Shown: positions 45,159 to 56,120 of the stretch, piece after piece
Layout of the letters: every line of letters begins with the position of its first letter
Position numbering within the stretch: position 1 is the first letter of the stretch
Source of the DNA: Apostichopus japonicus
Lineage: Eukaryota > Echinodermata > Holothuroidea > Aspidochirotida > Stichopodidae
DNA length: 64,000 nt
NCBI RefSeq assembly: GCF_037975245.1
Contig: NC_092579.1
Coordinates: forward strand, 7,711,001-7,775,000
Direction: 5' to 3'
Made by a program: the position numbers and the translations under genes
Notes under the pieces: model-generated
What the model saw: the letters and a program-made list of their open reading frames with translations, nothing else
What the model was told of the DNA's origin: nothing
Database searches by the model: none

Positions 45159-48100
45159 TTAAACAACTTGATCTTTCTTTCCATATTGCTTGTGAATGAA
45201 ACAACCAATAACGACAATACACACTAAGCCACATATCACTGAGATCGTTGCTATTAATGCAACTATCAGACCACTGCTAGAGTTTTTGACACATGTTGGT
45301 AGGATTTCCGACCAAGATGTACTAGCAAGGCATGTAAGACTAGGTTGCCCCATCAGAGTAAACCCATTATTACAAGTAATGCTTATACTAAAACCAACGT
45401 CATACACATTTCCTTCGATAACACCATTTTCAACTGAACCAGGGGAACCACAACTCATGGCAACACACTTTGGTAGTTGTTGAGACCAGGTGCCATTAGA
45501 GTGACAAGTTACTTCACGATTTCCTTCTATATAGAAACCCCCATTGCAGGAGGCAACTACTGTGTAGCCCACAAGAAAAACACTACCGTTAATTCCCCCA
45601 TTCTCAATCTTCCCTGGATGACCACAACTGACAATTTTGACCAACTTCTCTTTAACTTCGTTGAATGATTTGATATCTCGAAGCGATGCATTCGCAAACG
45701 CGATGCTGTTTGTAGTGACAGCATCATACAAACACGTTACCGAGTCACCACAAATGAGTTTGACTTCCTCGCTGACGGAGTCAACATCCGGAAATGCCAG
45801 ATTAGGAAGAAATTCTGGATTAAAGAAGGTCGAGAAGTCAGATGGAGGTAAATAAGTGAATTTAGAAGTGTTTGTGTCAAGGATCCATTCAAGTCCAAAG
45901 TCAAAATGGGTTGCTTCCAATGTTGAGTTAGGCCGCAGTGAAGACCCGTTTGGTAAAATAAAGTCATCATCTGCGAGGTCATTAAAATTGCCTAGTAGTC
46001 CCTCTGTCTGTCCCTTAAAACCATCCGGTAATTGTAAAATAAATGACATCATTTCTGTGGTGATCCTAATCAATGCTGTTGCTCCAATATGAAGGCGTAT
46101 TGTGATTTCAGACACGTCAGGGTTAACTGTTAACCTCAGTCCACGGAAGTCTTGCTTTCGGATCAGATATCCATCGAAATATAGATCAACTTGTTCACCG
46201 TTCAAGAGAATGAGTGTCCCATTTAAAGGTGACCTTTGAACTTGAATTGTATCAGACATGTCAGAAGAAAGTACAAAGGCTGTGTAGACGCTTGCATCAG
46301 TACCAGCTAAAACCTCCATTCTGGCTTGAAATGTAAAGTTATGTAAAGAAGATTTGACCAAAACAAATTCACCGGCACCATTAAAAGTGAATTCTTTCCC
46401 GTCCAGACTGATGAAATGAGGATCTCCTGTGCCAATAGTTGGTCGTGGTGGCTGATAACCCGAACAATCATCTGATGGACGAAATTCATAGTAAGTTTCA
46501 CACTGACTTATCAATTTGCAGCAGGCTAGAAATGGAAGGACATCGAACCAAAAATGCTTTACGGTGCCGCAAAAGCCTCCAGGAGCAAAAGCATCAACCG
46601 TCCCACCTCCGGGAGGTCCAACGAGTATATTACCATCGGATCCATAACAGCACTGTTGTCCACTTCCTCCTGATCCTGAACGGTAACACGACGAGGCACC
46701 CGGGTGGAAATATCCAAGAGATGGATTTGCGTCAGTTTCAAAGTTTCCATCAGCTGCTGCCTGTTGATCGGTGCACGGACATGCTGGTAGATCGCCAACG
46801 CTAGCAGATTGCAACCAAGACGAGCAGATTGATCTACCAATCATTTTCAAAATAGCGCTGGATAGCACTTGAAACAAAGACTTTCCATTTGCTTTCAAGG
46901 TAATCACTGACAACGATAAACCAAACGAACTTAGTCCATTCAAACTTTCCGTTGGTATTTCCGATGGCATGAAACGAAATGTACCTACGTTTTCAACACT
47001 GCTTGCAATTTTAATATCGTTTGACCAAACAAATCCCTCATCTTGATCAAGTTCTCTACTGGCGACTTGAATTGAAATATCGATATATTCCACTGCAAAC
47101 AGTTTGGTTGGATCCCACTCAAGGATAATTTCTTTTTCTTTTGTAAAATCAATGTTACCTTCAATTTCATCTGATTGCAACACATTGAGTGTAGCAGGAA
47201 GGACATCTTGGGGAAGAATGTAAACATTTCCCCTGAAAGGAAAAGTTTCTTTGCCGTCAACGGTTACGTCCACAGTAACATACGATAGTTGTTGAAACCG
47301 CGGAGTAGTGCAGAAAATGGTGTAAACATCAAAAACATGACCAGGGACGTCAATCACTTTGTTATCTTGATTGAATCGACAAAACACATTTTCAGTATGT
47401 ACTTCATTACTTTCAAGACATGGAAGCGTGACAGTGAGTTGTTCTCCGCCAACCTCTCGCAAAAAGAAGGGTTCGATGTTTAGGAGGCGTTCGTCATTTG
47501 GAAGGAAGAGTCCAGCTGAATAGCCATACGTCTCGTCACGTTCATATCCATAAACAATTACAGAAAATGGGGACGCATCGATGTACGAGCTTTGTTCTAC
47601 GAAGAAGACCCCTTCTCCCTTTGGAACCTCTACCGTATATACATCATATGGTGTACCGGCTATGCTATGATGGCTATGACTGCTATCTTGTAAAATAGGT
47701 TCACCGTTCACAAGAATGGTCTCCGACTCATTTGATTTGACTATAATGTTGAGAAAATTAAAGAATCCTTCACTGTCTCCGCCAGATTTTGGAGGAGTAG
47801 AAAATCCAAAGATGTAGCTGAATTGTTCTTCAGAGGGAACCTGAATTATAGAAGGGTCAACAATGTTTTGGTTAATTGTTCTTAAAAGCTGCAAGACAGA
47901 AATGGGCTGATTTGAGGTGATGACCCCACTCCCTTGAAGCTCGCCTTGCCAAAATTCTCCGAGTTGCAATGTCACCGGTTCGATACCTGGAATGGTTACT
48001 TCTGAATTTTCGTAATAGGTGTGAATTACATACACTGATCGGTCATCAGCGGATCCTGTGGCCGTGTAAATATATGAACTGCTCCAGCTTTCTACTGGTA

Positions 48101-48899
48101 CCAACTGCTCCGAAAGCGTATCGCAAAAAGAACCCGGCGTTGATGCACATAAGCGACCCGTAAAAAAGGCAACTGGCTTGTTGGTTTCAATAACACTGCC
48201 CCCAATATATCCGGCGTTAGTATCGCTTACTAGTTGTACCACTTCATGTCTGTGAATCGTCAGTTGAATCGTATCGCCACTCAGGTAAGAGGTGCCATCG
48301 ATAGTGACTCCTGCGGTAAGGACGATCCTTACGGCAGTTTCATCCTCCACGCCTACAATAGCAAAGAGACTCGGCAGGTTATTGCTTCTATCATAGCTCA
48401 TTGCTACGTAAGATAGTCCAAGATTGTTCACTGGAATAGCCAAGAAAGCATCAGTTGTAAAAGGCGCGTAGTTAAGACCGTAAACAGATACATCGCTGGT
48501 TGCAATCACTTCAATGACCTTGTCACTATGTTCTGAGGTTGTACCTAGTAGTAATTCGGTCGGAACATTGATTCGCTTCGAGCTTCTCGCATCCAGAACA
48601 AACGTTGTTAGGTACGGCCCATCAATGCCAGAATACTTGCTGCTTATCGTGACTGATGTTGATTGATCGCTAAATGCAACAACGATCAATGAGAGTTCAG
48701 TCGTTAAGAGGTTAGAAAATTGATTGCCCGTAAATGCTATCACAAAATTACGCCCTCGGGTAATACCCGAACAAGTGTCTGCGTTCCCATCTACTCGAAA
48801 TAGTAAAGAAACCAAGACGTAGAGAGTAACCACAAACCTGCACGCCATTCCTATTGGTAGAGAATGTATAAACATGATTAGCCATCCTTTCTGAAACAT
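45159..48899 (-). CDS. IgGFc-binding/AMOP/VWD/sushi type-I membrane protein, single exon
   Basis: A 1246-codon frame without introns. An in-frame TGA directly precedes the first ATG. Met18 (48,848) is a likely true start because MACRFVVTLYVLVSLLF then forms a signal peptide. Residues about 35-480 resemble the IgGFc-binding N-terminal domain (VYGLNYAPFTTDAFLAIPVN, YGYERDETYGYSAGL). About 490-660 resembles the IPT-like region of mesh-type proteins. AMOP spans about 690-820 (YFHPGASSCYRS, QQCCY, FRPSDDCSGYQPPRP). A VWD domain follows from 825 (GDPHFISLDGKEFTFNGAGE; EGLLGNFNDLADDDF). Two sushi domains lie at about 1092-1145 and 1150-1203, each with four Cys. A transmembrane helix is at about 1211-1235, then an 11-residue cytoplasmic tail. 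AMOP-VWD-sushi-TM is the order in SUSD2 and mesh, which act in cell adhesion; an adhesive or mucosal role here is inference. Confidence 0.9.
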   Translation of the reverse strand: MFQKGWLIMFIHSLPIGMACRFVVTLYVLVSLLFRVDGNADTCSGITRGRNFVIAFTGNQFSNLLTTELSLIVVAFSDQSTSVTISSKYSGIDGPYLTTFVLDARSSKRINVPTELLLGTTSEHSDKVIEVIATSDVSVYGLNYAPFTTDAFLAIPVNNLGLSYVAMSYDRSNNLPSLFAIVGVEDETAVRIVLTAGVTIDGTSYLSGDTIQLTIHRHEVVQLVSDTNAGYIGGSVIETNKPVAFFTGRLCASTPGSFCDTLSEQLVPVESWSSSYIYTATGSADDRSVYVIHTYYENSEVTIPGIEPVTLQLGEFWQGELQGSGVITSNQPISVLQLLRTINQNIVDPSIIQVPSEEQFSYIFGFSTPPKSGGDSEGFFNFLNIIVKSNESETILVNGEPILQDSSHSHHSIAGTPYDVYTVEVPKGEGVFFVEQSSYIDASPFSVIVYGYERDETYGYSAGLFLPNDERLLNIEPFFLREVGGEQLTVTLPCLESNEVHTENVFCRFNQDNKVIDVPGHVFDVYTIFCTTPRFQQLSYVTVDVTVDGKETFPFRGNVYILPQDVLPATLNVLQSDEIEGNIDFTKEKEIILEWDPTKLFAVEYIDISIQVASRELDQDEGFVWSNDIKIASSVENVGTFRFMPSEIPTESLNGLSSFGLSLSVITLKANGKSLFQVLSSAILKMIGRSICSSWLQSASVGDLPACPCTDQQAAADGNFETDANPSLGYFHPGASSCYRSGSGGSGQQCCYGSDGNILVGPPGGGTVDAFAPGGFCGTVKHFWFDVLPFLACCKLISQCETYYEFRPSDDCSGYQPPRPTIGTGDPHFISLDGKEFTFNGAGEFVLVKSSLHNFTFQARMEVLAGTDASVYTAFVLSSDMSDTIQVQRSPLNGTLILLNGEQVDLYFDGYLIRKQDFRGLRLTVNPDVSEITIRLHIGATALIRITTEMMSFILQLPDGFKGQTEGLLGNFNDLADDDFILPNGSSLRPNSTLEATHFDFGLEWILDTNTSKFTYLPPSDFSTFFNPEFLPNLAFPDVDSVSEEVKLICGDSVTCLYDAVTTNSIAFANASLRDIKSFNEVKEKLVKIVSCGHPGKIENGGINGSVFLVGYTVVASCNGGFYIEGNREVTCHSNGTWSQQLPKCVAMSCGSPGSVENGVIEGNVYDVGFSISITCNNGFTLMGQPSLTCLASTSWSEILPTCVKNSSSGLIVALIATISVICGLVCIVVIGCFIHKQYGKKDQVV

Positions 48900-49450
<551 letters not shown>

Positions 49451-49522
49451 GTGTGTGCGTTGGTAAATGGTGGAAATCGAGGTAATTCGTCCGTTTACAC
49501 ACCTTCCAATCGAGGTATCACC
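49451..49522 (+). repeat. Left terminal inverted repeat of the SET-carrying element
   Basis: It pairs with the complement of 54,855-54,919 in four collinear blocks separated by small gaps (for example the extra AAATGGT after TTGGT). Confidence 0.7.
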
Positions 49523-49800
49523 GACAATCGAGGAATACCTCGATTAGAAAAGTACTGGCGTGGCGCTATTTGTGATCCTTTAAATGCTAGGAAAGTGATT
49601 TTGGTTCAATTTGAAGTAGTACCTCGTTTGGCATCATGCCACCTTGTTTATATACATCTTTGTGTATACATGACTACGGCGCGATTTCACACAAAAATGT
49701 CAGTACCTCGATTACACGATGGACTGACGGCTGCGAGTCACTACATCGAATGGCAGGATCCCGCATGATTTCCTCGGTTTTGCGGTGGAAAACTGTCCCG
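49523..49800. repeat. Left subterminal CCTCG/CGAGG repeats
   Basis: Short words built on TACCTCGATT, TACCTCGTTTGG and AATCGAGGAA recur in both orientations (near 49,527, 49,537, 49,620, 49,704 and 49,770). The same words fill the right side of the element. Confidence 0.65.
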
Positions 49801-50304
49801 TCGCAATACGGTGGTAAATATAAAATCACTTTTTTATTTAGTCAAAAATGTAATATGATCCTAATGTACCCGCTTGAATTCACTAATCGAAAAGCCATAG
49901 GGCCTAAGACTAGAGTTATGATTCGTGTTGACCATAGTCTAGGACTAAATGCCTAGGCCTATATATGTTGCTAGGCTATATATTTTAACAGCCATAACAT
50001 AAGGTTAGGCTCTGCAATAACATGCAGTACTATTTTGATAAGAGATAACAAGTGATCTCATCAGTGGTAGCCTATGAACTAATGCATGTGGGCCTAAGTT
50101 TGTATGGTCCTTAAAACCTGTGTTGAAATAATTTAGCCCTTTCATTTTTTTTTTGCGCCTACGAGATTATTGTTAGTTTGTTATTTATGCATTTACTTAA
50201 CTTGCATTTAGGGGAATGCATTCAGCCAAATTTCTTTCTTTCTTTCAATATAACTTAACTTAATTGTTAACATTGTCTCTGTGACATTGTTTTGTTCTTG
50301 ATAG

Positions 50305-52475
50305 ATGGGGCGCAGAAAATAACCTGATTATGCTGTAGCAGCTAGAGAATGGATAAATTCACATAATGAAGACCCACCTGGCTTTTACATTAAAGAAGTG
50401 TCACCCACGATTGGTGAGCATTACATGCATACATTTGTTAACCACAATGACATTAATTTAAGAGAATATGTATCTAGTTTGTAATATCTATTGTCCTTTA
50501 ACTGCCTACTGTCTAAACGTTTCTTTTTTATAAGTGTTTGTAGAAAAGTACACTGGGTCTACAATTGTATTACCCAGATAAAGAAGAACTATATGGACAT
50601 AGGTGGAAGATGCATGTTGTATATTTACTTGTTCTACTTACTACAGGTAAAGGGCTGTTTGCAGACAAAAGCTTCTCAAGAGGCGAATTTTTGGTGGAAT
50701 ACAAGGGGAAGTTGGAAGCAGCATCTAACTATGAAAATGTTGATGACCTGACATATGTTTACTATTTTGTTGATGGGAGGAAGGAGTTGTGGTAAGTAGG
50801 TCAAATGTCTTGTAATACCTCTTCTCATTCCACAGCAGCTTCTACTTGAATTGGATATGGTGTGTACTAAGCAGCATAAAAATGTGTTATAGTATCAGGA
50901 CCAAAGTAAATTTCCTTTCATATTATTAAATAAATGTTGTAGTTCTTTGAATAAACTCAGTTTGTGTAGCATTCCCTTCCTCATACCACATCATCTTATC
51001 ACCCAGTGCTGTAGGAATCAAGTCCTTTTGTTGTGGACTAGGACTCAGACCTGGGATGTCTTGCAGTCAGACTTGTCTCGGACTTCAGATCCCCTGGACT
51101 AGGTCTCAAGTCTGAGTCCAGATGTATTCCACATTCTGTATGTCAGTATAGTAGGAGTTAACACATTTGGCCACATAGTGGACCTTCACTAATTGATTGT
51201 ATTATCATAAGTGAAGAACTATGTAAACGATTGTGGTGCCAACTGAAGTTGTAGGTTTCATCAGTAGATGATTGCAAACAAATAATTTGACTTATTATTA
51301 CCAGTGCATTCACAACATTTACTTTCTTTCAGTGTTGATGCAACTTTGAACCATTGCTTAGGTAGATATGTTGGATTAAGAATATTTTTTATCATGAAGC
51401 GATTATGTGTGGCATTGCGAGATCAGGTCTGATATCACTAATCAGTTGGTCATGTACTGATGGCAATGCACATTTCTATTCAGTTTGAACGTTTGGTAAA
51501 ATCTAATTTGATGAAGCTGTATAGAATTGTATTTACAGTGACCAATCTCATAATGACTATGTGTTTTGTGAATTTATAGAAGTTGTAGAGGACCCTGGTG
51601 ATGCTGATAGTAATGATGAATGTTCAGATGCAGATGTTGAGGATAATGCTGCAGCACAGGAACTACAGGCACCAGAAGCAATGCTAGAAGAAACTGGTGA
51701 GTGTTTCTATTTTATACAACACCTAATTATATTCCGGCCATTTGATTGGTCAATTGCTCGTCGATTGCATGCAAAATCCGCTCTATTGCACTCTATGAAA
51801 TAGAACCATGGGTTATACTTTTTTGATAGCACTTTTTTCAATGGTAAGAGAGCAGAGAAACCCGTCTTTCCAAAACAATATGTTGCATGAGTGCATTTTA
51901 CATCCAATTATATCCAAATTTGAAGGTGTTGTATAAAACAAATAATGCATGGTTTCCATTCGTGCAATAGTGCAAATATTTCATTCGTTGAAAGATGTAA
52001 TTTGTTGCATTCAACTCGGCTGCGCCTCGTTGAATGGAACATTCCATCTTTCAACTCATGAAATATTTGCACTATTGCACTCATAACCATTCATTATTTG
52101 TATAACAATGAATGCAGGTAAAGTCAATCTCATAACAAAGCAATATTCACATATATAGTGTAGTAGGAATATGTAGTGGGAATGAAATGTTGTTTAAAGC
52201 AAGGTGATTACTTCCCCTTGTTTCCAATTAATCAAATCATTTACACTTCTGATGGTTAGTATGTTAAAAATATTAATTTTAGAGATATATTTGTGATTAC
52301 AGATGATAATGCATCCAAGGTTCGCAGTACTACAAGCTCTTCAAATGTGCCACAAAAGACTACAAAGAGGAAAGCCTGGAGCACGGATGAAAGGGACGCC
52401 ATAATGAAGCATTTTTCAGGGCTGATCTTACGGAACAAGCTTCCTGGCAAAACTGAGATTGAGATCATTGTGTAG
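50305..52475 (+). pseudogene. KMT5A-like: KMT5A/SET8-like lysine methyltransferase gene, broken
   Basis: Exons: 50,305-50,413, 50,647-50,791, 51,333-51,361, 51,580-51,696 and 52,303-52,475, all with GT/AG ends and matching phases 1, 2, 1, 1. They encode a short N-terminal part (PDYAVAAREWINSHNEDPPG), then the first half of a SET domain (KGLFADKSFSRGEFLVEYKG, YVYYFVDGRKEL, CVDATLNHCL). An acidic linker follows, then KRKAWSTDERDAIMKHFSGL with RNKLPGK. The same WS.xE...I..HF motif follows KMT5A-like SET domains in multi-copy invertebrate and fish genes that I recall. Defects: codon 6 after ATG is TAA (50,320-322); the catalytic SET half with NHS and YDYG is missing after VDATLN; and the C terminus stops early at 52,475. 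If translation began downstream it would still lack the active-site half. Confidence 0.75.
51711..52110. repeat. Hairpin MITE-like inverted repeats in SET intron 4
   Basis: The segment 51,928-52,018 is the reverse complement, with mismatches, of 52,024-52,110 (ends TGTTGTATAAAACAAATAATG / CATTATTTGTATAACAATG; core GTGCAATAGTGCAAATATTT). A further partial inverted copy (TATTTTATACAACACCTAATTAT at 51,711) pairs with 51,905-51,936. No coding. Confidence 0.8.
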
Positions 52476-53150
52476 CGTATAGCATATGTTTGTCAGTTTC
52501 AAGGACTTAAACTTCTTTCTGGATCTATTTTGTGCATTATTCATGCAGGCTCAGTTATAACAGTGTTCATTCCTATTTACTTCACATGTTGTCATTTGTT
52601 ACATAAGTGGTGTATTTTAGCCTTCAAAAATGAAGTATGAAGTATGAAGTTTTTGTATAGATTGTAAAAGTATTAAGGAAGGTATATTTGATTTTGAGGA
52701 AACGTACAAGATTATCAGTAAGTATAAAGGGGCTTCTCAGTGACCAAGACCTGCCCTCCCATGAAATATGTACTTTACTTGTCTGATAAAACAGATTCTT
52801 TTAGTCACAATGTTCTACAAAGTTTGATATAAAGGGCTCCTTTTTCATCACCAAAACATAGCTAAAACTGGCAAGAAGGTATGGAACAGACTTGAAGAAG
52901 AAATGTTAGTGTTTATTCTAACCTACCTCTCATCACTTAATCTACTCTTTAATTAGTCTCCTTTTTATATTTTAACACGTTATACCACTTGTTTTATTGT
53001 TCATTTTAGAGAAAACATGTTTGTGTTGGAGTCACCTTTATGTTCGATCTTCTTTCTTGTCTATCGTAGTAAACACTAAAGCAAACTTCAAGGTTCAGTG
53101 GAGTACAACCAATACTTGTCTGTCCCTCCCAAACATAATATATGGCAATA
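52476..53150. other. Interior of the TIR element, no gene seen
   Basis: No exon was recognised between the SET-like gene and the repeat-rich right side. GAAGTATGAAGTATGAAG is a small repeat near 52,631. Confidence 0.4.
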
Positions 53151-54900
53151 CAATGTTTCATGGTATAAGAAATGCCCTGATTCCTCGATTTGATGTTATG
53201 ATAGGCTCGATAGCTAGTCAAGTGTATATGCTATTCAATAGTCAGTACTTCCTTGGATGGTATATGGACTTCTGAAGTTTCATCAATGAAAAATATTCCA
53301 TGTTTCGGTTGTATTAGGAGTACATTGATTACTATATTCATGAACCCAAATGAAGAGTTTTTCTCGATTGTCGGGTGAATTTCTCAAGTTTACACACTGT
53401 TTAAATTATGACAGATACATATAGGTTAGCCGAAATAGTGTAAGCATTGAGTCGCATGTATATGGGTATATCTATTATATCATCCATTCGTGTATGCACC
53501 TCTGAACACAAATTGCTGTCCGACAAATTAGTCCCATGTCCGTTGACATAAGAAATACTCCTCGATGTGGCATTGTGACCTCTATTCAAACGCACAGCAT
53601 TGCCTCGATTGGTATGTGTACTTCTGAAGTTTACACATTTATGTTTACGTTAGATATGACAGAGGCATCATCAACTTGCCATCAGAGTGTAAAAGCCTAC
53701 CTTGACGTTCATTCGGTTGATTCTCAATATGCAGTTATATCGCGCCAATATAACACAATTATTGCCATAGAAGATATGCACTGATTCCTCGTTTTGATAT
53801 TATGACCGCTAATCGAGTGTATACTTTGACGTATAATCAGCATTACCTCGATTGGCATGTGGACTTCCGAAATAAACATTTAACATTTCTAGGTTATATC
53901 AGTAGCGTATTAATTGCTCGATTTGATAACATGACGGCTAATGAAATGCTTCGTTACTGTGTAGAAGAAATGCACTGATTCCTCGTTTTGATATTATGAC
54001 CGCTAATCGAGTGTATACTTTGACGTATAATCAGCATTACCTCGATTGGCATGTGGACTTCCGAAATAAACATTTAACATTTCTCGGTTATATCAGTAGC
54101 GTATTAATTGCTCGATTTGATATCATGACGGCTAATGAAATGCTTCGTTACTGTGTAGAAGAAATGCACTTATTCCTCGATTTGATATTATGACCGCTAA
54201 TCGAGTGTATACTTTGACGTATAATCAGCATTACCTCGATTGGCATGTGGACTTATGAATAAACATTTAACATTTCTCGGCCACATAGTAAATTAACTGC
54301 TCGATTTGATATCATATCAGTACTTGCGAACTTCTGAAGTATATACATGACTTTTTGACATCACGGATCAAATATTCTTAAGTTGTGTAATAACACAACA
54401 TAACCCAACCGTCGCTTACGTAAAAAATAAATCGATCCTGAAAACTCGTTATTCAGAGTTGTCTCAATTGGTGTGCGGAATTCTGACTGGTCATCCATGA
54501 ACAATATCCTTTATACAGGAAATGTGCACGATTCAGTAACCCCGATTGATATGTAGACTTCTAAAGTAACAATCTACAGCGGTTCCTCGATTTGGTAGTG
54601 AAATGGACAACCTAGTGTAACAATGTGTATCTTAGTATTTCCTCTATTGATATGTAGACTTATTATGAGGAGTAAATTACCTCGTTTTCCCGATTCTGGC
54701 TTCACGATAGGTGTGTATGTGTGTTAAATCATTACCTCGTTTTGTATGTACACATCTCATTGCCAAGATAAGTTCCAACGATCAACTTCGGCACATATGA
54801 TGCTCTCACAGGTAACCTACTACTACCACTCAAAAGGGTGGACCTCTCTGAAGGTTTTCTAGGGTTTCCTCGTTTGTAAGGTTCAGTACGGACTACCTCG
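53151..54900. repeat. Right subterminal repeat field of the SET-carrying element
   Basis: More than fifteen copies of TTCCTCGATTTGATATTATG-, TACCTCGATTGGCATGTGGA- and TACCTCGTTTTG-type words occur in one orientation at 50-100-base intervals, in progressively diverged context. The block ends at the right terminal repeat. This dense, oriented repeat field is unlike the surrounding sequence. Confidence 0.8.
53781..54320. repeat. 194-base tandem repeat, about 2.8 copies
   Basis: CTGATTCCTCGTTTTGATAT starts at 53,781 and 53,975, and a variant starts at 54,169; the units are nearly identical. Each unit contains three CCTCG/CTCGA words, so it is a local amplification of the subterminal repeat. Confidence 0.92.
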
Positions 54901-54919
54901 TTTGCCACCAAGCACACGT
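54855..54919 (-). repeat. Right terminal inverted repeat of the SET-carrying element
   Basis: It contains GGTTTCCTCGTTTGTAAGGT, GTACGGACTACCTCG, TTTGCC and ACCAAGCACAC, which mirror the left end in order. Confidence 0.7.
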
Positions 54920-55333
54920 ATGTGTGCGTGTGTGTGTGTATGTGTACATGTATGATATGATATTAATCATATATGTACTACGACAGTCTCATAATACCTG
55001 AGATGTTTTTACATGTTCTTCAATTATATTAAAAAAAAATCAAACACTACAGGCGTTACACAATAATGCTAAAGCCTATACTGCAGCCCTATCGTTAAGC
55101 TTGACTTAAGGCAAGCTAAGTAACAAATATATTCATGAACAGAACAGGATATCCTGAAAGGGTCCACACATAATGATTGCCTGACCGCGCGACCCCACTC
55201 ACCCATAAGCTAAATTCGGCCCTGGTGATAGAATTCAGCTTTCTACTTCTAAGATACAAAATATCGTTCAGTTTTTCGTTCTTTTAGAGACTGTCCTTAA
55301 AAAGCATTTCTTAATTGGGCTGCGTTCAACTTA

Positions 55334-56120
55334 GAATAAATTTCCTTTGATCTAATTTTTTTATTCAAAATGAAATGAAAATAACATTTGTTACAAATAT
55401 ATCAATTTTATTTGTCTCAACTCTTTTGGCTTTTGTATTTACAACTTATATACTTTAAGCTATATTTAATATCATCGGATAAATCCCTTCCTTTGCTAAA
55501 AATAGTTTAAAGAATGCTATTGCAATATCTTGAGAGAAGTTCAATCACAAAATTTCACATACGCGGTAATATAATCCTGAAGATTTTGCATTCAGATAAC
55601 GATGAATGTGAAACATCAGAAGTTTATATATTGTATACTTAACTAATTTTTCGATTGCAATCTTACTTGGAATGGGAACTCTACGGAATTGGTAGACAGT
55701 TGTTCACCTACGTTGTATCTTCGACAAACTGATGTGCGTGATAGCTTGAGTCAGTTCAAATATAAATTCAATGGACAGTTGGGCGCCATAAAGAAACGTC
55801 TTATATTTACACAGTACTCCTGAGGGTAGAACAATCAGTTCATTTTTTTCACAGTCGAACTATTTGAACACCACACCTCATATGTTTATTTCGCTGTTGG
55901 GAAAGACTGGTAGGGTTTCCCCCTACTTCTTCCCAATGATGTCAGTTGTTGGACGGGAACCAACAATTCAAGCAGGGCCACAATACCCTTGTCCAGAGAC
56001 GTAGCTAAGGCCTGATGATGGGGGGGGGGGGGGCTGTAGTGTCTGAAATTCCAACTGGATGGGTTTTGAAGCCAGAAAATTCCGACTGCTGCTTTGTACC
56101 CCCTCCCCCACCCACCCGGC
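55334..56120. repeat. Dispersed repeat block A, copy 1
   Basis: From TAGAATAAATTTCCTTTGAT to the CCCCCACCCACCCGGCG word, this block is about 85-90% identical by eye to 56,617-57,330. A run of 13 or more G is at 56,020-56,033. No coding. Confidence 0.8.

Follow-up and report, generated by a model that had tools for sequence, protein, structure and literature searches.

The stretch of DNA analyzed here (the window; 64,000 nt of Apostichopus japonicus NC_092579.1, positions 7,711,001-7,775,000) contains an internally deleted copy, W, of a DNA transposon family that is probably moved by a tyrosine recombinase (YR), and whose long copies are predicted to encode a protein with the order SET, low-complexity linker, zinc-finger-like motif, YR and Myb-like part. 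We assign this reading, which draws on sequence comparison, a probability of about 0.82. It is the best explanation of the common ends, the empty site, the GT-rich sites, the gene order, the joint SET-YR frames, the invariant YR residues and the dispersed copies, all from searches of a genome of 671.6 Mb in 35 contigs. An earlier, sequence-only reading had placed the element at 49451-54919; this was close, and the ends common to the copies give 49456-54922. In window coordinates, the element, its ends and the flanking tracts are:

49456..54922, plus strand: complete span of copy W (5467 bp, internally deleted); boundaries common to five other left and four other right ends
49468..49516, plus strand: left imperfect inverted repeat, starting 12 nt in from the end (local alignment against the reverse complement of the right end)
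54868..54910, minus strand: right imperfect inverted repeat, starting 12 nt in from the end (same alignment with the left end)
49421..49455, plus strand: left flanking GT-rich tract, target side
54923..54945, plus strand: right flanking GT-rich tract, target side
49478..49776, no strand: left subterminal motifs, CGAGG (3) and CCTCG (4)
53183..54900, plus strand: right subterminal CCTCG motifs (14)
53768-54349: tandem 194-bp units within the right subterminal region of W, the third unit only 65% alike

The local alignment between the two ends scored 32, a value reached by 0 of 3000 dinucleotide shuffles (maximum 26) and by 2 of 2000 random window pairs. The earlier description of imperfect inverted repeats at both ends, arranged in collinear blocks, is thus confirmed, and a chance inverted repeat is rejected. 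The right 1.77 kb of W contains 14 CCTCG motifs in a single orientation (shuffle mean 0.69, maximum 4 in 500 shuffles), and the left 345 bp contains three CGAGG and four CCTCG (shuffle mean 0.43, maximum 3). The left side mixes the two motifs and is therefore not purely oriented; of the oriented subterminal repeats claimed for both sides, the enrichment and its presence on both sides stand, whereas the single orientation holds on the right and fails on the left.

Copy W is a shortened, non-autonomous copy from which the mobility enzyme and one half of SET have been deleted. Set against the six-exon gene of a long copy, D7, exon 4 is absent from W, and the remaining exons and the deletion junctions are:

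50305..50413, plus strand: exon 1, which opens the SET protein with its start codon and in W contains an in-frame TAA
50647..50791, plus strand: exon 2, whole, N-terminal half of the SET domain (weak Pfam SET match, 16 bits, in D7)
51333..51370, plus strand: what the internal deletion leaves of exon 3, 38 of 199 bp
51370..51371, no strand: junction of the internal deletion of about 4.0 kb; the rest of the SET domain and the recombinase exon are gone
51580..51696, plus strand: exon 5, whole, acidic stretch
52303..52464, plus strand: exon 6, partial (162 of 263 bp), encoding a Myb-like tail
52464..52465, no strand: second deletion junction in W, 0.67 kb; the stretch is present in A17m, B11, C17p and D7

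The five-exon SET-like gene of the sequence-only reading is, therefore, a remnant of a six-exon gene, with a stop in exon 1 and partial exons 3 and 6. In three long copies (A17m, C17p and D7), about 4.0 kb of sequence lies where W passes directly from window position 51370 to 51371, and this missing sequence comprises the C-terminal half of SET together with an exon of approximately 1070 residues with YR motifs. This recombinase-like exon rules out SET as the sole cargo, which is what the methyltransferase gene had been taken to be; the prediction of longer relatives, by contrast, was correct, and it is these long copies that hold the exon. The first deletion junction of W is identical in sequence in B11, on another contig, suggesting that the deleted form itself has moved. 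The intron separating exons 5 and 6 of W also contains a 40-nt inverted repeat, 93% complementary (window 51962-52080).

The window copy is a genuine mobile element, internally deleted. Its left 150 bases match six loci, including the window, at 99-100% identity; exon 2, the first SET exon, matches the same six loci at 96-100%; and the right 160 bases match five of the six at 97-100%. The right end of the sixth copy (on contig C9) was looked for and not found. From end to end, the five complete copies measure 5467 (W), 6764, 9774, 10263 and 10939 bp, the long copies being those of 9.8-10.9 kb, so that the fixed distance between ends that had been expected does not hold. Flanking sequence was tested for W and B11, and in neither case does it match another copy. 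The right flank opens with GT-type repeats in all five copies, and the left flank closes in GT-rich sequence in four of six (W, A17m, B11 and C17p, not D7 or E9m). The empty-site search used the joined flanks of A17m (240 bases) as the query, and 40 of 1861 candidates were scored; at least 35 among the 41 matches listed run unbroken across the junction (bases 41-240) at 85-98% identity, and in two empty-site matches aligned letter by letter, the gaps are confined to the GT tract. The A17m flank is a dispersed repeat, which provides an empty (GT)n site for that one copy. No target duplication was resolvable at the copy ends, inside the GT-rich target. Common ends, differing flanks (two copies) and an empty site (one copy) are the features of mobility found here, and the further insertions with both ends, together with the A17m empty site, bear out the earlier claim that this is a mobile element enclosing a KMT5A-like gene.

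It should be mentioned that B11, C17p and E9m contain three differing inserts of 0.6-0.7 kb, at separate places matching window positions of about 49641-50115; those in B11 and C17p carry inverted ends, and the inserts are probably nested non-autonomous elements. Outside W, a 1246-residue open frame on the minus strand (window 45162-48899) contains IgGFc_binding, AMOP, VWD, C8-3 and two Sushi stretches, and is probably a host gene for a secreted or surface protein adjoining the element. The peptide LLQYLERSSITKFHIRGNI occurs in two nearby frames, from window positions 55511 and 56794 onwards, as a repeat duplicated locally.

The D7 gene consists of six exons and five GT-AG introns that keep the phase, and its translation of 1348 residues contains, in order, a KMT5A-like SET domain, a linker, a zinc-finger-like motif, the YR and a Myb-like tail. 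The splice dinucleotides agree in all three copies having all six exons, and two of these three have frameshifts. The long copies thus appear to encode a single predicted SET-recombinase protein with the SET domain at the N-terminus. For the SET part (151 N-terminal residues), the best 14 of 36 solved-structure matches are KMT5A/SETD8 (E 9.7e-16 to 3.2e-14), and the exon 3 frame exceeds the Pfam SET cut-off (25.1 bits vs 22.4). At the NH motif of SET, D7 and a second locus, L058, read ND, and a third, L046, reads NH; YDYG is retained in all three. Within the subfamily, the numbers of synonymous and nonsynonymous changes in the zinc finger-YR region are 5/5, 5/5 and 10/8, corresponding to a dN/dS of 0.23-0.28 from few changes; those in SET (2/0, 1/2 and 1/2) are too few to judge. 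Exon 4 of D7 repeats within itself, and in L058 482-4270, the SET-to-YR linker holds several near-identical tandem protein repeats.

The YR region spans 426 residues in D7 and was aligned with those of ten other loci (11 in total, including three near-duplicate pairs). R228, K275, R350, H376 and Y385 are invariant in all 11. A pattern search recovered the first-arginine block in 31 of 31 loci, the R-GHD-YYR block in 29 and a narrowly written K block in 22. In the HxxR box, a motif of tyrosine recombinases, the first residue is T in all 11 aligned sequences. Pfam Phage_integrase matched one of the 11 (E 7.2e-5), with 23.1 bits, below the cut-off of 27.1, and of the 32 Phage_integrase matches in the whole genome, one overlaps a YR row (E 0.06). 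The Pfam scan of the large D7 exon gave no family near significance; a profile search of the YR against solved structures returned a single unrelated match (E 0.2); and searches with phmmer and against PHROGs gave no useful match. In hhalign comparisons with seven lambda-type integrases, whole and by the catalytic part, the YR scored 15.8, a value exceeded by at least 10 of 100 controls with shuffled columns (16.7-24.7). Matches to the YR pattern in viral contigs (nine) and in prokaryote genomes (14) yielded zero confirmed cases. Based on the motifs and weak Pfam support, we interpret the large-exon domain as a putative YR.

A YR query (592 residues of D7) produced at least 76 match rows in the genome, a few of which are pieces of one copy; rows outside the window's own subfamily are 31-47% identical to the D7 YR. 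The SET query (exon 3, 79 residues) produced at least 134 rows at E up to 0.05. In a 40-kb search around each YR row, the closest SET lies upstream and on the strand of the YR for 58 of the 76, in 29 cases within 6 kb, compared to a chance expectation of 0.004 per YR; for the remaining 18, it is downstream (2), on the opposite strand (1) or absent (15). The supposition that KMT5A-like copies elsewhere are tied to the element is thus supported, as many adjoin a recombinase-like exon. The tail query (69 residues) gave at least 80 rows, and of the 76 YR rows, 41 have their nearest tail (15-kb limit) downstream in the same orientation, one has it placed otherwise and 34 have none. In some pairs, the SET-to-YR gap reaches 10-31 kb, so that SET-YR pairs need not all be single genes. 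At eight places, neighbouring SET and YR rows report equal open-frame length; of these frames, L058 (contig C6, 1263 residues) and L046 (contig C3, 951 residues), from subfamilies other than that of W, were read, and each contains both SET and YR motifs. Thirty YR loci form nine sets with members 96.0-99.8% identical over 2.8-4.75 kb, and such near-identical dispersed sets indicate recent dispersal.

SET rows without an assigned YR row number 76 of 134, and include rows on contigs C4, C14, C19 and C20. At one locus, L071 (G000:C14:12477000-12483000), SET frames lie in two units about 3.2 kb apart with no YR row near; rows of this type may represent a separate SET expansion or other elements. 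On contig C16, in frames of 983 residues, two Phage_integrase matches (G000:C16:31849029-31849298 and C16:32048229-32048498), from a group of seven with equal scores, sit between SET and YR rows on the opposite strand; perhaps these frames belong to another YR element that lies nested within the first.

Three other explanations were weighed. One is compatible with a YR-moved family, namely, that this is a catalogued Crypton subgroup, such as Repbase CryptonV, that carries a SET domain and exists as a database record only. CryptonV appears by name, without description, in the Repbase classification lists that form part of PMC5753468 and PMC4455052, and the layout of the element is Crypton-like; conversely, the main text of the 2011 Crypton paper by Kojima and Jurka (PMC3212892) does not contain the word 'methyltransferase' and uses 'set' twice, each time in its everyday sense. 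We consider this identity unlikely; it is the main risk to novelty. No SET-YR transposon was found described in the literature searched, Repbase Reports and Dfam lying outside that search.

Under the second explanation, which is improbable, the family is a cut-and-paste transposon with terminal inverted repeats, the exon of approximately 1070 residues encodes a divergent DDE protein, and SET is a passenger. The inverted repeats and subterminal motifs at the ends agree with it, as does an exon without a strong Pfam match; however, the invariant R-K-R-H-Y, the R...GHD...YYR layout and the one sub-threshold Phage_integrase match point to a recombinase, the inverted arms begin 12 nt inside the ends, and a target duplication was not resolved. 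A DDE family was absent from the Pfam scans of four D7 frames, two window frames and the 11 YRs. Finally, a host KMT5A-like multigene family interrupted or captured by unrelated elements, with a pseudogene in the window, would account for the 76 SET rows without an assigned YR and the YR-less place with two SET units, but is highly improbable given the SET exon beside the common left end at 6 of 6 loci, the upstream position of SET at 58 of 76 YR rows, and one open frame shared by SET and YR at eight places.

If the family is moved by its YR, the anatomy suggests the following pathway. The YR would bind the inverted arms lying 12 nt inside each end and excise the element as a circle; because the arms begin 12 nt inside both ends, they would face each other across a 24-nt centre. 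Strand exchange would then put the circle back at TG-rich sites. W and B11 would have been moved in trans. The subterminal CCTCG motifs may serve as binding sites for the zinc-finger-like or Myb-like parts. The SET domain may methylate a chromatin protein at the donor or target, H4K20 being a first guess from KMT5A, and such methylation would tie movement to chromatin or replication state.

A broader proposal, to which we give less than even odds, is that the family represents a distinct, old and recently active animal YR superfamily with a built-in histone methyltransferase domain, which marks chromatin as a step of movement and spreads KMT5A-like genes across genomes. Mobile elements are usually the targets of host chromatin marking. 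A family in which a KMT5A-like domain accompanies the recombinase, across subfamilies with YRs 31-47% identical to that of D7, would offer a directly testable example of a transposon writing its own chromatin marks, and multi-copy KMT5A-like genes would be explained as element genes rather than host genes, which bears on gene annotation.

Among known systems, the family resembles Cryptons in being a YR DNA transposon with internally deleted non-autonomous derivatives, as passages of PMC3212892 describe for CryptonA and CryptonI. The animal Cryptons of those passages differ from this element, which has a SET domain, a C-terminal tail and inverted end arms; a C-terminal domain and terminal repeats are both reported there as absent from animal Cryptons (PMC3212892). 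The same passages report DUF3504 matches for the YRs of CryptonA-1_OL, Crypton-1_SP and CryptonA-1_SK, and very low identity among YRs (PMC3212892). DUF3504 (PF12012) was not among the families matching any of the 11 YRs at E up to 1, and the YRs showed no significant similarity to three DUF3504 loci in the same genome; DUF3504-type copies occur separately in A. japonicus. Membership in CryptonA is rejected, given the lack of a DUF3504 match, the inverted arms at both ends and the C-terminal tail (D7 exon 6). For typical tyrosine recombinases, according to a passage of PMC3212892, a pair of inverted arms, each 11-13 bp long, flanks 6-8 bp, whereas the arm spacing here is longer (24 nt in the circle).

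With lambda-type integrases (R212, K235, H333 and Y342), the element YR shares the R, K, H, Y order and the 9-residue H-to-Y spacing; however, no overall similarity was detectable by hhalign, and the HxxR box of the element starts with T. SETMAR likewise joins a SET domain to a mobile-element enzyme, but it is a single host gene derived from a mariner transposase, with a DDE enzyme instead of a YR, and not a mobile family. Among solved structures, the closest likeness of the SET domain itself is to KMT5A/SETD8 (PDB 4ij8, 5w1y and others), with about 108 residues aligned at E about 1e-15 and YDYG kept, the difference being that the SET domain of the element sits in a mobile-element protein and that NH has become ND in D7.
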